Assembly: GCA_014729725.1 (NCBI GenBank) | Contig: WJJL01000060.1 | Location: 1-47,643, forward strand | Reading direction: 5' to 3' | From: Candidatus Moraniibacteriota bacterium | GTDB taxonomy: Bacteria > Patescibacteriota > Minisyncoccia > CAIUEV01 > JAHKAQ01 | Length of the DNA stretch: 47,643 nt | Shown here: positions 5,382-20,669 of the stretch, piece by piece | Numbering within the stretch: the stretch's first letter is position 1 | Layout of the letters: every line of letters starts with the position of its first letter | The notes under the pieces: model-generated | The model's input: the letters and a program-made list of their open reading frames with translations, nothing else | Databases searched by the model: none | Told to the model about the DNA's origin: nothing | Made by a program: the position numbers and the translations under genes

Positions 5382-5455
5382 GCGAAAGTAGCTCAGTTGG
5401 CTAGAGCGTTTCCTTGCCAAGGAAAAGGTCGCGGGTTCGAATCCCGTCTTTCGCT
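5382..5455 (+). tRNA. tRNA-Gly(GCC)
   Basis: A complete cloverleaf: acceptor GCGAAAG/CTTTCGC (5382-5388 with 5448-5454), D arm 5391-5407, anticodon stem TTTCC/GGAAA with loop TTGCCAA and anticodon GCC at 5416-5418, and T arm 5431-5447 with TTCGAAT. The discriminator is T at 5455. CCA is not encoded, so a CCA-adding enzyme is needed. The first 66 bases are duplicated at 2178-2243. Confidence 0.95.
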
Positions 5456-13582: not shown

Positions 13583-14160
13583 AAAAGCGGTTTAACAAAA
13601 ACTATAAGCCGGATTCTGTATGCCCGGCTCTAAAATCAAAATTTTTTGACGATTTTTATTTTTAGAAGTCTTGGTTTTTAATTTTAGAGCCGGGCACGGT
13701 GATTATTTATCTGGGCAAAATGTTACCATTTTGCTCAAGCGGCTCTTCCCTTCCCAAAATTGAAACTTTCTGAACAAATTCCTTGTAAATCAAGATATAT
13801 AATAAAAAGATCAACTTCCAAAAAAAATATGCTAAAACCAAAAATTTCAATTTTGGGAAGGGACACGGCCTTGCATAAGACAGGGTTTGCCACGACACGC
13901 TATCGCTAGCGCACGAAAGCAATAGGTTTGAAGCTTTTTAAGGCCTCAACCCAAACTTGCTTACTTTTCACCTTTCCTGGAAAAGTTCCAGTAGTATAGT
14001 CTCTGCGGCACTTTCCCGTCATCCCGCTCCAAAATCAATTTTTAAAAATTGATTTTGGAGCGGGATGAGGTGGACGTTATCCACTGTCTTTAATTTATGT
14101 CCGGACTTTCCTCATCCATTTAAAATGGATGCAATCACCTGTTTTTGTTAAACCGCTTTT
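13583..14160 (-). ncRNA. rnpB: RNase P RNA, type A-like, with three expanded hairpins
   Basis: Catalytic RNA of RNase P, which trims tRNA 5' ends. The ends pair perfectly over 20 bp (P1: 14141-14160 with 13583-13602). The 5' P4 strand (minus strand, 14113-14099) carries the conserved GAGGAAAGTCCGGAC. The 3' P4 strand (13619-13604) carries ACAGAATCCGGCTTAT. P3 is 14113-14131, and P18 with a GUAA tetraloop is 13715-13734. Core segments such as GAAAGTGCCGCAGAGACTA and GCAAGGCC are present. Length is about 578 nt against roughly 380-400 in model bacteria. The excess lies in three long hairpins: a 25-bp palindrome at 14019-14068 (P9 region), a 19-bp arm pair 13747-13765/13845-13863 (P16-P17 region) and a 16-bp P19-like arm pair 13621-13636/13681-13696. 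Confidence 0.95.
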
Positions 14161-18302: not shown

Positions 18303-20060
18303 TTATTTATAATCAGCAACTTGATTTTTCACTCTATTGATAAAAACAGTTAGCTTTACGGCCCCTTCATTGCCTTTTTCTCTTGATCTAACAGATACTT
18401 TCAGGGATTTTTCTTCTTTTTGACCAACAATTAGCATATAGGGGATTTTTTGTTTTTGAGCTTCTCGGATTTTTTTACCCAGAGAATCGTCAGTGTTATC
18501 TGTTTCTGATCTAATTTCTTCACTAAACAGTCTTTTTTTTACCTGATTGGCATAAGCATTAAATTTTTCCGATACAGGAATAATCATAACCTGAATCGGA
18601 GAAAGCCAAACCGGGAAGGCTCCGGCGTAATATTCTATAAAAAAAGCAAAAAATCTTTCAAAAGATCCGATAAGCGCTCTGTGAATCACAAAAGGTCTTT
18701 GCTTGTTACCCTTTTTATCAATGTAATTTAAGTCAAAACTTTCCGGAAGGTTAAAGTCAATCTGGTTGGTGCCAATCGAATCTTCTTTACCAAAAACATT
18801 TATCGCCTGAACATCTATTTTGGGACCATAGAAAGCAGCCTCGTTTTCCTCTTCATAGAATTTGACCTTGTTTTTTTTCAAAGTTTTTCTCATTACTTCC
18901 TGGGCCCAGTCCCATCTTTCTTTAGGCCCCACATATTTTGATTTATCGTCTCCTCCAAGAGAAAGTCGGTATTTATAATCTTTAAAACCAACATCTTTAA
19001 AAAATTTTTCAAATAATTCTATTACTTCCATAAACTCATCTTCCAATTGGTCGGGAGTGCAAAAAATATGAGCGTCGTTTTGAGTGAACCCCCGGACTCT
19101 TTGTAATCCGTGAAGCTCTCCGGATTTTTCATATCTGTGTACGGTGCCGAATTCTCCCATTTTAAAAGGTAAGTCTCTGTAGCTTCTGGGCTTCATATTG
19201 TAAATCATCATTTCAGCCGGACAATTCATCGGTTTTAAATAAAAAGTCTCATTATCAATTTCCAGAGGGCTATACATAGAATCTTTATAAAATTTTAAAT
19301 GACCAGAGGTTTCAAAAAGTTCTTTTTTATTGATTACCGGAGTTAAAACATGGGTATAACCGTAAAATCTTTCCATTTTTATCATATAATCTTCCAAAAT
19401 TCTTCTGATGGTATAACCTTTGGGTAGCCAGACAGGAAGCCCTTGGCCTATTTGTGGAAATATTGCGAAAAGCTCCAGTTCTTTTCCCAGTTTTCTATGA
19501 TTTCTTTTTTGAGCTTCTTCCAGTATTTTTAATTTTTTGGCCAGCTCTTCTTTGGAATTAAAAACCACTCCGTAAATTCGGCTAAGCATTTTATTTTTTT
19601 CATCTCCTTTCCAGTAAGCGCCGGCCAATCTCAACAGTTTGAAAGCTCCTGGATCGATTTGTTTGGTGGATTCTAAATGCGGCCCCTTGCACAAATCAAC
19701 AAAATCTCCAAGCTCGTAAAGGCTTACCTGCTTTATGTTTTTCTGATCGATTAACTCTTGAATCAACTCCACTTTATAGGGCTGGTTTTGTTTTTCAAAA
19801 TATTTTATAGCTTTTTTTGCCGGAATTTCTTTTTTTTGAAATTCAAGATTCTGGCCGATAATTTTTTTAGCTTGTTTTTCGATTTTTTTTAAATCTTTTT
19901 GAGTGATGCTTTTATCAAATTCAAAATCATAATAAAATCCATCTTCAGTAGCCGGACCAATCCCCAGTTTTGTTCCGGGAAACAACTTTATAACAGCTGC
20001 CGCTAAAACATGACCGGCTGAATGGCGTAAAATTTCGGGATCGATTTTTTTCTGGTTCAT
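18303..20060 (-). CDS. thrS: Threonyl-tRNA synthetase lacking the TGS domain
   Basis: Charges tRNA-Thr with threonine. The 585-residue protein starts directly in the editing domain (HSAGHVLAAAV, His 13 and His 17), so the N-terminal TGS domain of about 60 residues found in the E. coli enzyme is absent. The class II core has zinc ligands Cys near 278 (MNCPAEM), His near 329 (NDAHIFC) and His near 459 (FVIHRALIG), and motif 2 as FGTVHRYEKSGELHGLQRVR. The C-terminal anticodon domain starts near IQVMIIPVSEKF. The upstream region 20160-20351 holds a promoter and a T-box-like leader, so expression should rise when tRNA-Thr is uncharged. miaB follows after 6 bases. Confidence 0.95.
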   Translation of the reverse strand: MNQKKIDPEILRHSAGHVLAAAVIKLFPGTKLGIGPATEDGFYYDFEFDKSITQKDLKKIEKQAKKIIGQNLEFQKKEIPAKKAIKYFEKQNQPYKVELIQELIDQKNIKQVSLYELGDFVDLCKGPHLESTKQIDPGAFKLLRLAGAYWKGDEKNKMLSRIYGVVFNSKEELAKKLKILEEAQKRNHRKLGKELELFAIFPQIGQGLPVWLPKGYTIRRILEDYMIKMERFYGYTHVLTPVINKKELFETSGHLKFYKDSMYSPLEIDNETFYLKPMNCPAEMMIYNMKPRSYRDLPFKMGEFGTVHRYEKSGELHGLQRVRGFTQNDAHIFCTPDQLEDEFMEVIELFEKFFKDVGFKDYKYRLSLGGDDKSKYVGPKERWDWAQEVMRKTLKKNKVKFYEEENEAAFYGPKIDVQAINVFGKEDSIGTNQIDFNLPESFDLNYIDKKGNKQRPFVIHRALIGSFERFFAFFIEYYAGAFPVWLSPIQVMIIPVSEKFNAYANQVKKRLFSEEIRSETDNTDDSLGKKIREAQKQKIPYMLIVGQKEEKSLKVSVRSREKGNEGAVKLTVFINRVKNQVADYK

Positions 20061-20159
20061 AGTTTTAATTAAAAATAAAATTTAATGGATGGTTGATTGT
20101 TTTCATTTCAAGGAAAAATAAATTATTGGCGCTATCATTTACAATCTTTATAATCTAAT

Positions 20160-20306
20160 AAAAAAAGCCCAAATTTATTGTAAACCCCAAGACCCTTTCG
20201 GGCGGTTCCACTTGGGTTTCCAATTTATTTGGACTCTCTTTAAAAACACTGTCGCGATTTTATTGGCGAAAGCTAAAAGGGTGGTTAGGCCTTTATTATT
20301 GCTTTT
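20160..20306 (-). promoter_or_regulatory. Compact T-box-like riboswitch leader of thrS
   Basis: On the minus strand, 20216-20186 forms a T-box antiterminator: helix A1 CCCAAG/CTTGGG, the 7-base bulge TGGAACC (consensus UGGNACC), and helix A2 GCCC/GGGT closed by a GAAA loop. The competing terminator pairs 20203-20197 (GCCCGAA, inside A2) with 20173-20167 (TTTGGGC), followed by seven T. Upstream, 20306-20269 folds as a small stem whose 9-base loop carries ACC (20285-20283), a threonine codon that could act as specifier. Bulge position 4 is A, which would pair with a U discriminator on tRNA-Thr. Stem I is far smaller than in Firmicutes leaders, and the specifier assignment is inference. Confidence 0.72.
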
Positions 20307-20322
20307 ATTTAATTTTATAATA

Positions 20323-20351
20323 ATATTAGTTATAAATAATAAAAATGTCAA
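20323..20351 (-). promoter_or_regulatory. Promoter of the thrS leader
   Basis: On the minus strand TTGACA (20351-20346) and TAATAT (20328-20323) are separated by 17 bases. Transcription would start near 20316, giving a leader of about 255 bases before thrS that spans the T-box-like structure. Confidence 0.7.
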
Positions 20352-20387
20352 AATTTGTGAAAGGCTTAATCTTAAAGAATAAAATTT

Positions 20388-20669
20388 ATGAATCTTAAAA
20401 TTACAATTAAAAACCAACAAATTAGTCTTTTTTTAACCAAAGCTCAAAAAAATGAGATTGTTGCAAAACACAACTGGAGGGATAAAAAAGACCTTTCAAC
20501 AAGATTATTAGCAGAAATTGATAGATTACTTAAAAAATATGATTTAAAACCGACAGATTTAAAAAAAGTTGAATATTTTTGCAATATGGAAGAAAGCTAT
20601 TCAACTTATAGGATTGGCAAGAGTGTTAGTGATTGCTTAAACTATTGTTTGGAAAATTCAAATGATTAA
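20388..20669 (+). CDS. Small protein resembling the N-terminal lobe of TsaB
   Basis: This 93-residue protein aligns by eye with the first part of TsaB (YeaZ), a partner of TsaD in making the t6A base of tRNA. The stretch STRLLAEIDRLLKKYDL parallels the TsaB helix HSERLLPAIDELLKEAGL. STYRIGKSVSDCLNYCLE sits where TsaB has GSFTGLRIG followed by a helix. The Gly-rich GPGSFTG loop is degraded (NMEESYS). TsaB is normally about 220 residues, so only the dimer-forming N-terminal lobe would be left. It is divergent from thrS. t6A is made from threonine, so the placement is suggestive. The assignment rests on a short similarity, and an unrelated protein is possible. Confidence 0.45.
   Translation: MNLKITIKNQQISLFLTKAQKNEIVAKHNWRDKKDLSTRLLAEIDRLLKKYDLKPTDLKKVEYFCNMEESYSTYRIGKSVSDCLNYCLENSND

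Follow-up and report, generated by a model that had tools for sequence, protein, structure and literature searches.

A probable threonine T-box of compact architecture upstream of thrS in Patescibacteria, with a terminator predicted to consume stem III

Four classes of T-box riboswitch (I to IV) were listed in a 2023 paper, with tRNA binding augmented by the distal, elbow-binding module of stem I (IDTM), by the S-turn of stem II, or by both; stem II is indispensable in class III, whose specifier is apical (PMC10482949). The T-box discriminator carries the published motif 5'-RRRxG-stem III-AA-3' (PMC7583486, PMC7778990); stem III and the purines are required for binding of the tRNA 3' end and for rejection of charged tRNA, and in the canonical transcriptional T-box the antiterminator helices A1 and A2 supply the terminator with their 3' strands (PMC7583486). 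Here, we describe the leader of thrS, the gene for threonine–tRNA ligase, in a 47,643-nucleotide stretch of Candidatus Moraniibacteriota DNA (contig WJJL01000060.1; the window). Judged from its sequence and that of its relatives, this leader is very probably a transcription-attenuating T-box riboswitch for threonine. A first-pass annotation, made from the letters of the window, had proposed that thrS is preceded by a threonine T-box whose stem I is very small; that proposal is strongly supported by covariation, by the conservation of a UGGAACC bulge, and by U at the discriminator position of the tRNA (U73).

Elements of the thrS leader and their conservation

The window belongs to a genome of 1.14 Mb in 69 contigs, and the nearest relatives of its thrS are in Candidatus Moraniibacteriota, a Patescibacteria group. 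On the minus strand, a promoter is followed by a leader of ∼250 nt and then by thrS (Table 1). The leader consists, in order, of a basal helix, a specifier hairpin, a weak small hairpin, GAGAG, stem III, AA, A1, UGGAACC, A2, the A1 3' strand CUUGGG, CAAUAAAUUUGGGC and U7, and the hairpin that ends in U7 lies ∼100 nt upstream of thrS. All of the parts named in the first-pass annotation, the promoter, the UGGNACC-type bulge between two helices, the run of seven T and the mini-hairpin with ACC, are present in the minus-strand sequence. In a relative (L010/L106), TTGACA followed by TATATT occupies the equivalent promoter position, and across 25 leaders the highest promoter score found ahead of stem I has a mean of 9.7 of 12, compared to 8.1 in shuffled sequences.

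Table 1. Coordinates of thrS and of the elements assigned to its leader
Feature	Positions	Strand	Sequence or composition	Basis
Sigma-70-type promoter	20323-20351	minus	TTGACA-17-TAATAT	Consensus scan
Threonine T-box leader, whole	20306-20159	minus		Sequence and covariance models
Stem I	20269-20305	minus	Basal helix AAAGC/GCUUU; kink-turn-like linkers AAUAAU / UA; hairpin AAAGG[CCUAACCAC]CCUUU	
Specifier (Thr)	20283-20285	minus	ACC in apical loop, then conserved A	Covariance-model alignment columns
Hairpin II, weak in window	20241-20268	minus		Hairpin in 22 relatives, stems differing
Purine string and stem III	20217-20238	minus	GAGAG, UCCAA[AUAAA]UUGGA, then AA	Conserved columns, covariation
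Antiterminator	20186-20216	minus	A1 CCCAAG/CUUGGG; A2 GCCC/GGGU; bulge UGGAACC 20210-20204	Covariation
Terminator (predicted)	20159-20242	minus	5' strand UAAAGAGAGUCCAAAUAAAUUG 20242-20221; 3' strand CAAUAAAUUUGGGCUUUUUUUA 20180-20159; U7 20166-20160	Predicted minimum free energy (MFE) fold
thrS, threonine–tRNA ligase (regulated gene)	18303-20060	minus		TIGR00418 equivalog, 693.8 bits (cut-off 383.65)

The leader matches the T-box family model RF00230, which the first-pass annotation had put forward as a check, though weakly: run against a 421-base stretch, the model matches 20308-20185 with 32.6 bits (E=1.1e-5), and the alignment covers the basal helix, the kink-turn (K-turn) region, stem III, the bulge and A1/A2. 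A scan of the window with Rfam at gathering scores reported no T-box, the cut-off of RF00230 being 93 bits; the leader thus escapes routine annotation because most of stem I and stem II is missing from it. The gathering score, which is shaped by the long stem I and stem II, serves as a threshold for detection and does not describe a function. The fold of the region beats 199 of 200 shuffles (z=-3.06).

We built a covariance model, R1, from four thrS leaders (those of the window, L106, L099 and L101), and it recovers the leader of a same-family genome outside this training set with 83 bits (E=3.7e-12). When 21 leaders are aligned to the model, 22 of the 23 pairs are altered on both sides, including all 10 pairs of stem I, and stem III likewise shows changes on both sides. 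In this alignment, 92.7% of cells are paired (99% in A1 and 100% in A2), compared to 74.8% after shuffling and no more than 49% when partners are slid; the covariation score was not reached by any shuffle. Because the structure guided the alignment and the aligned sequences share ancestry, we also swapped strands between species. The species' own strands paired better than crossed ones in the basal helix (97% versus 72%), in the upper helix of stem I (100% versus 70%; both in 22 sequences) and in A1 (98% versus 75%), with 0/10000 permutations in each case, although the own-strand figures are somewhat favoured, as the strands were located by seeking pairing. Covariation of A1 and A2 in relatives, which the first-pass annotation had put forward as a check, is thus borne out by changes on both sides of the helices and, for A1, by the swap test. 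The same annotation had held that loss of the UGGNACC bulge in close homologues would tell against a T-box; UGGAACC is invariant, occurring in 21/21 leaders.

Matches to R1 were found in 40 of 384 genomes of the taxonomic class (E≤0.01) and, at E≤1e-4, in 22 of 362 genomes drawn from the phylum as a whole. In 34 of the 35 matches that we opened (25 from the class and 10 from the phylum), thrS lies in the same locus, mostly as the next gene; the lone exception, L218, is at a contig end. As a control, R1 was run on 74 other thrS loci, most of them from other phyla, and gave only three weak matches, all in Clostridium (E 0.13-0.38).

Stem I of the window is only 37 nt long with an apical loop of 9 nt, too short to accommodate a distal IDTM or a specifier in an internal loop. 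A clean K-turn forms stem I in most relatives, made of a 5-bp helix, a 3-nt bulge, GA / GA, a 4-7 bp helix and a loop of 7-9 nt (for example CUACCAA or ACUAACCAA). The specifier columns A, C and C are conserved in 19, 21 and 19 of 21 leaders, and the A that follows them in 19 of 21; in the distant members L232 and L237 the triplet is ACU and ACG, both threonine codons. The case for the codon rests on these alignment columns and on the ACU and ACG variants, since our parse of stem I in relatives searched for ACC and is circular with respect to the specifier.

The specifier agrees with the amino acid of the regulated gene. The genome encodes a tRNA-Thr(GGU), with the loop AU-GGU-AA and discriminator U, which bears out another check put forward in the first-pass annotation; ACC is complementary to its anticodon, and the UGGA of the bulge is complementary to the tRNA 3' UCCA, that is, to discriminator U. 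All three tRNA-Thr of the genome (GGU, UGU and CGU) have U73. The variable position of the bulge also fits the tRNA in the other T-boxes of this genome: UGGA in the glyS leader with U73 of tRNA-Gly, and UGGC in the aspS and trpE leaders with G73 of tRNA-Asp, tRNA-Asn and tRNA-Trp. On the 3' side of stem I, GAGAG-UCCAA..UUGGA-AA fits the discriminator motif 5'-RRRxG-stem III-AA-3', and the purine columns are highly conserved.

Between stem I and stem III, the RF00230 alignment yielded no S-turn stem II, only a small hairpin, and the AGUA strand that is present in ileS and aspS leaders was not found in the compact thrS leader. In relatives this hairpin II has 4-8 bp and (A/G)CGAA in its loop. 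A candidate 3-bp pseudoknot would pair CGC (20268-20266), in the strand just 3' of stem I, with GCG (20255-20253) in the hairpin II loop; no C-A mismatch occurs in 14 cases (Fisher p=0.07), and the compensated forms UGU/GCA and CGG/CCG are found, which is suggestive of such a contact.

Comparison among relatives thus supports the helices, the specifier, the match of the bulge to the discriminator base, the pairing of the predicted terminator and the linkage to thrS. We infer the transcription start, tRNA binding, rejection of charged tRNA, termination and the direction of the response.

A terminator predicted to compete with stem III

In the predicted terminator, the purine string joined to stem III serves as the 5' strand, and A1/A2 are enclosed by the hairpin. 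Its pairing appears in the predicted MFE of all 17 full leaders, including that of the window, and stem III is gone in 17/17. A1 is fully kept in 13 of these 17 folds; 5 of its 6 pairs remain in L209 and 3 of 6 in the window, and L213 and L226 retain no pair. The hairpin of L099 has twelve perfect pairs (AGCCUAAUAAAC/GUUUAUUAGGCU) that lead directly into the U tract. The complementarity is moreover species-specific: in 19 leaders, the downstream strand complements the 14-nt 5' strand at 11.7 positions within a species, compared to 9.6 with the strands of other species and 8.4 when the 3' region is shuffled (0/10000 permutations). The loss of stem III and the general retention of A1 imply that, in these modelled folds, the terminator competes with stem III and not with the antiterminator, and that A1/A2 can stay folded at the tip of the hairpin. 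The terminator and antiterminator had initially been described as mutually exclusive; this part of the early description did not hold, since the terminator consumes the purine string and stem III, and A1/A2 largely persist in the predicted fold. Because binding of the tRNA 3' end and rejection of charged tRNA both depend on stem III and the purines (PMC7583486), the locking or loss of stem III would serve directly as the readout.

The alternative that survives best is an ordinary T-box, either of class III or a decayed class I, with a standard terminator formed from the 3' strands of A1/A2, in which case the pairing of stem III with the terminator strand would be a folding artefact. Some neighbours do follow the usual plan: in thrS leaders of the same group (L008, L009, L013, L049, L119, L221, L223 and L224), the downstream strand still mirrors the 3' region of the T-box, and ileS, aspS and serS leaders of the taxonomic class retain the S-turn stem II together with the usual terminator. 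We nevertheless consider this alternative unlikely, because the complementarity of the downstream strand to the purine string and stem III recurs in 17 leaders including the window and is specific to each species, and because the terminator folds invariably lose stem III while most of them keep A1 in full.

A second alternative is autorepression by ThrRS, which would recognise a tRNA mimic in its own leader in the manner of Escherichia coli thrS, with the ACC hairpin as the protein site. The leader is tied to thrS and does have a small hairpin with a 7-9 nt loop, but that loop holds a codon (ACC, ACU or ACG), not an anticodon; UGGAACC, A1/A2, the purine-flanked stem III and the species-specific terminator with its U tract would be left unexplained, and related designs with other codons precede glyS, ileS, aspS and serS. 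We therefore rejected this model as very improbable. Attenuation by a leader peptide, in which ribosome stalling at Thr codons governs the terminator, would suit a promoter and a terminator-like hairpin ahead of the gene, but has next to no chance of being correct and was likewise rejected, since the sole listed open reading frame that spans the leader (20175-20420, TTG start) starts before the promoter and lacks any run of Thr codons in 20310-20180, and ACC lies in a loop between covarying helices.

If the leader is a threonine T-box, transcription would begin near 20312, and the nascent stem I would display ACC in its apical loop for pairing with the anticodon loop of tRNA-Thr(GGU). The 3' UCCA of an uncharged tRNA would then pair with UGGA of the bulge, and A1/A2, stem III and the purine string would stack into a T-box discriminator. 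Stem III, held in the tRNA complex, would resist opening by the downstream strand, and RNA polymerase would read into thrS. With charged tRNA or with none, the downstream strand would invade stem III and the purine string to form the long hairpin with U7, and transcription would stop ∼100 nt before the gene.

Several observations weigh against this reading of the leader. The K-turn of the window is degenerate, with linkers AAUAAU / UA in place of the NNNGA / GA of most relatives. The terminal G-U pair of A2 is the main sensor, a steric one, of the 3'-aminoacyl group in known T-boxes; the window has G-U at this position, as do 10 of 29 leaders overall, but the pair is Watson-Crick (A-U, G-C, U-A or C-G) in 19/29 (among L202-L231). 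Amino-acid sensing may thus differ in these leaders, or the wobble pair may be dispensable for threonine. When the terminator strand is left out of the fold, the antiterminator form of the window is predicted at -18.4 kcal/mol compared to an MFE of -28.3, and A1 has a probability of 0.17; in the corresponding folds of 17 leaders, A1 forms in full in 12. Finally, the terminator loop is long (∼40 nt) and structured, not that of a textbook intrinsic terminator, and a simple terminator scan recognised none in the leader.

T-boxes elsewhere in the genome and the phylum

To the first-pass annotation, a T-box in a Patescibacterial genome was an unusual find, a view that our counts contradict. At E≤1e-6, RF00230 matched 45 of 286 genomes of the taxonomic class, none above the gathering score; in the phylum-wide sample the figure was 110 of 380, with 13 above that score. 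T-boxes are thus common in Patescibacteria. The host genome itself has three further T-boxes, before aspS, glyS and trpE-trpS-trpG. In the open literature, we found no paper tying T-boxes to Patescibacteria, Parcubacteria or the Candidate Phyla Radiation, a weak negative, as subscription journals lay mostly outside the search. By the above counts, tRNA-sensing control of aminoacyl-tRNA synthetases is widespread in Patescibacteria, a phylum about whose gene regulation little is known; most of these T-boxes are missed at standard Rfam cut-offs.

For T-boxes other than the compact thrS leaders, stem I loops were taken from RF00230 alignments, as an unconstrained search for a K-turn plus hairpin yielded mostly chance hairpins. 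The aspS T-box of the host genome (L001; G000:C30:4280-4556, minus strand) has a short stem I, and the triplet displayed by the apical loop, CCAACA, is AAC (Asn) and not GAC. L115 and L127 resemble it; L098, of the same family, has GAC. This suggests that some aspS genes may be controlled by tRNA-Asn, as would be expected if AspRS charges tRNA-Asn too. The T-box before the trpE-trpS-trpG operon (L003 / L006, G000:C69) has UGG in a short stem I. A simpler design is seen in the glyS leaders L002, L102 and L124, in which the loop GAUUGGC with GGC is followed by a short linker, stem III and the antiterminator, with neither K-turn nor stem II.

RF00230 aligned an S-turn stem II in ileS, serS and aspS leaders of the taxonomic class. 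The ileS (AUC) and serS (UCC) leaders L109, L111, L113, L120, L122, L130 and L134 have a class III-like stem I, the S-turn stem II and a IIA/B element, and their terminators are apparently transcriptional. Five thrS T-boxes (L008, L009, L013, L049 and L119) have the same specifier hairpin, with the loop CUACCAA or similar, and the usual terminator derived from the T-box; both terminator types thus coexist among thrS leaders.

Two other RNA features were noted in the window. Two stretches of the plus strand (2183-2245 and 5382-5455) hold the tRNA-Gly(GCC) gene and a second, truncated copy of it, which covers tRNA model positions 6-65 only and was not called by ARAGORN; on the minus strand, 13589-14150 encodes a 562-nt class A RNase P RNA that carries long A/T-rich insertions.

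Comparison with described T-box classes

A conserved T-box that acts at the speed of transcription with no recognisable IDTM or S-turn stem II would come near to a minimal form of the device, and a terminator that consumes stem III points to a different site of decision. Such a terminator also allows natural variants to be used to test what stem III and the A2 G-U sensor each do.

Among the closest described systems is the class III T-box of Nocardia farcinica and Mycobacterium ileS (PMC10482949, PMC10651847), which likewise has a short stem I with a K-turn and no distal IDTM, an apical specifier followed by A (AUCA in class III, ACCA in the thrS leader), and a discriminator with stem III, A1 and A2. 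However, the apical loop of class III has 5-6 nt, compared to 9 nt in the window and 7-9 nt in its relatives, and the S-turn stem II that class III requires is absent from the thrS leader. Class III T-boxes respond to isoleucine and act by Shine-Dalgarno sequestration in Actinobacteria, whereas the thrS leader would respond to threonine through a predicted transcriptional terminator in Patescibacteria. With class II, represented by Bacillus subtilis glyQS (PMC10482949), the leader shares predicted transcriptional control and the absence, between stem I and stem III, of a stem II domain with an S-turn, but it has neither the long stem I with distal IDTM nor the internal-loop specifier of classes I and II. 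Relative to the RF00230 T-box leader, it lacks most of stem I and stem II.

Like that of the canonical transcriptional T-box, the predicted terminator is a hairpin with a U tract upstream of the gene and OFF by default; unlike the canonical one, in which the 3' strands of A1/A2 form the 5' strand, it is predicted to use the purine string and stem III (PMC7583486 for the canonical form). The compact thrS leader fits none of classes I-IV: it is of a known kind, a T-box, with an architecture that is new and possibly represents a further class. We lean, with some reserve, towards the view that such a class extends across Patescibacteria, with the tRNA held only by its anticodon and 3' end, and with stem III as the switch element, invaded by the terminator strand while the antiterminator helices stay folded.
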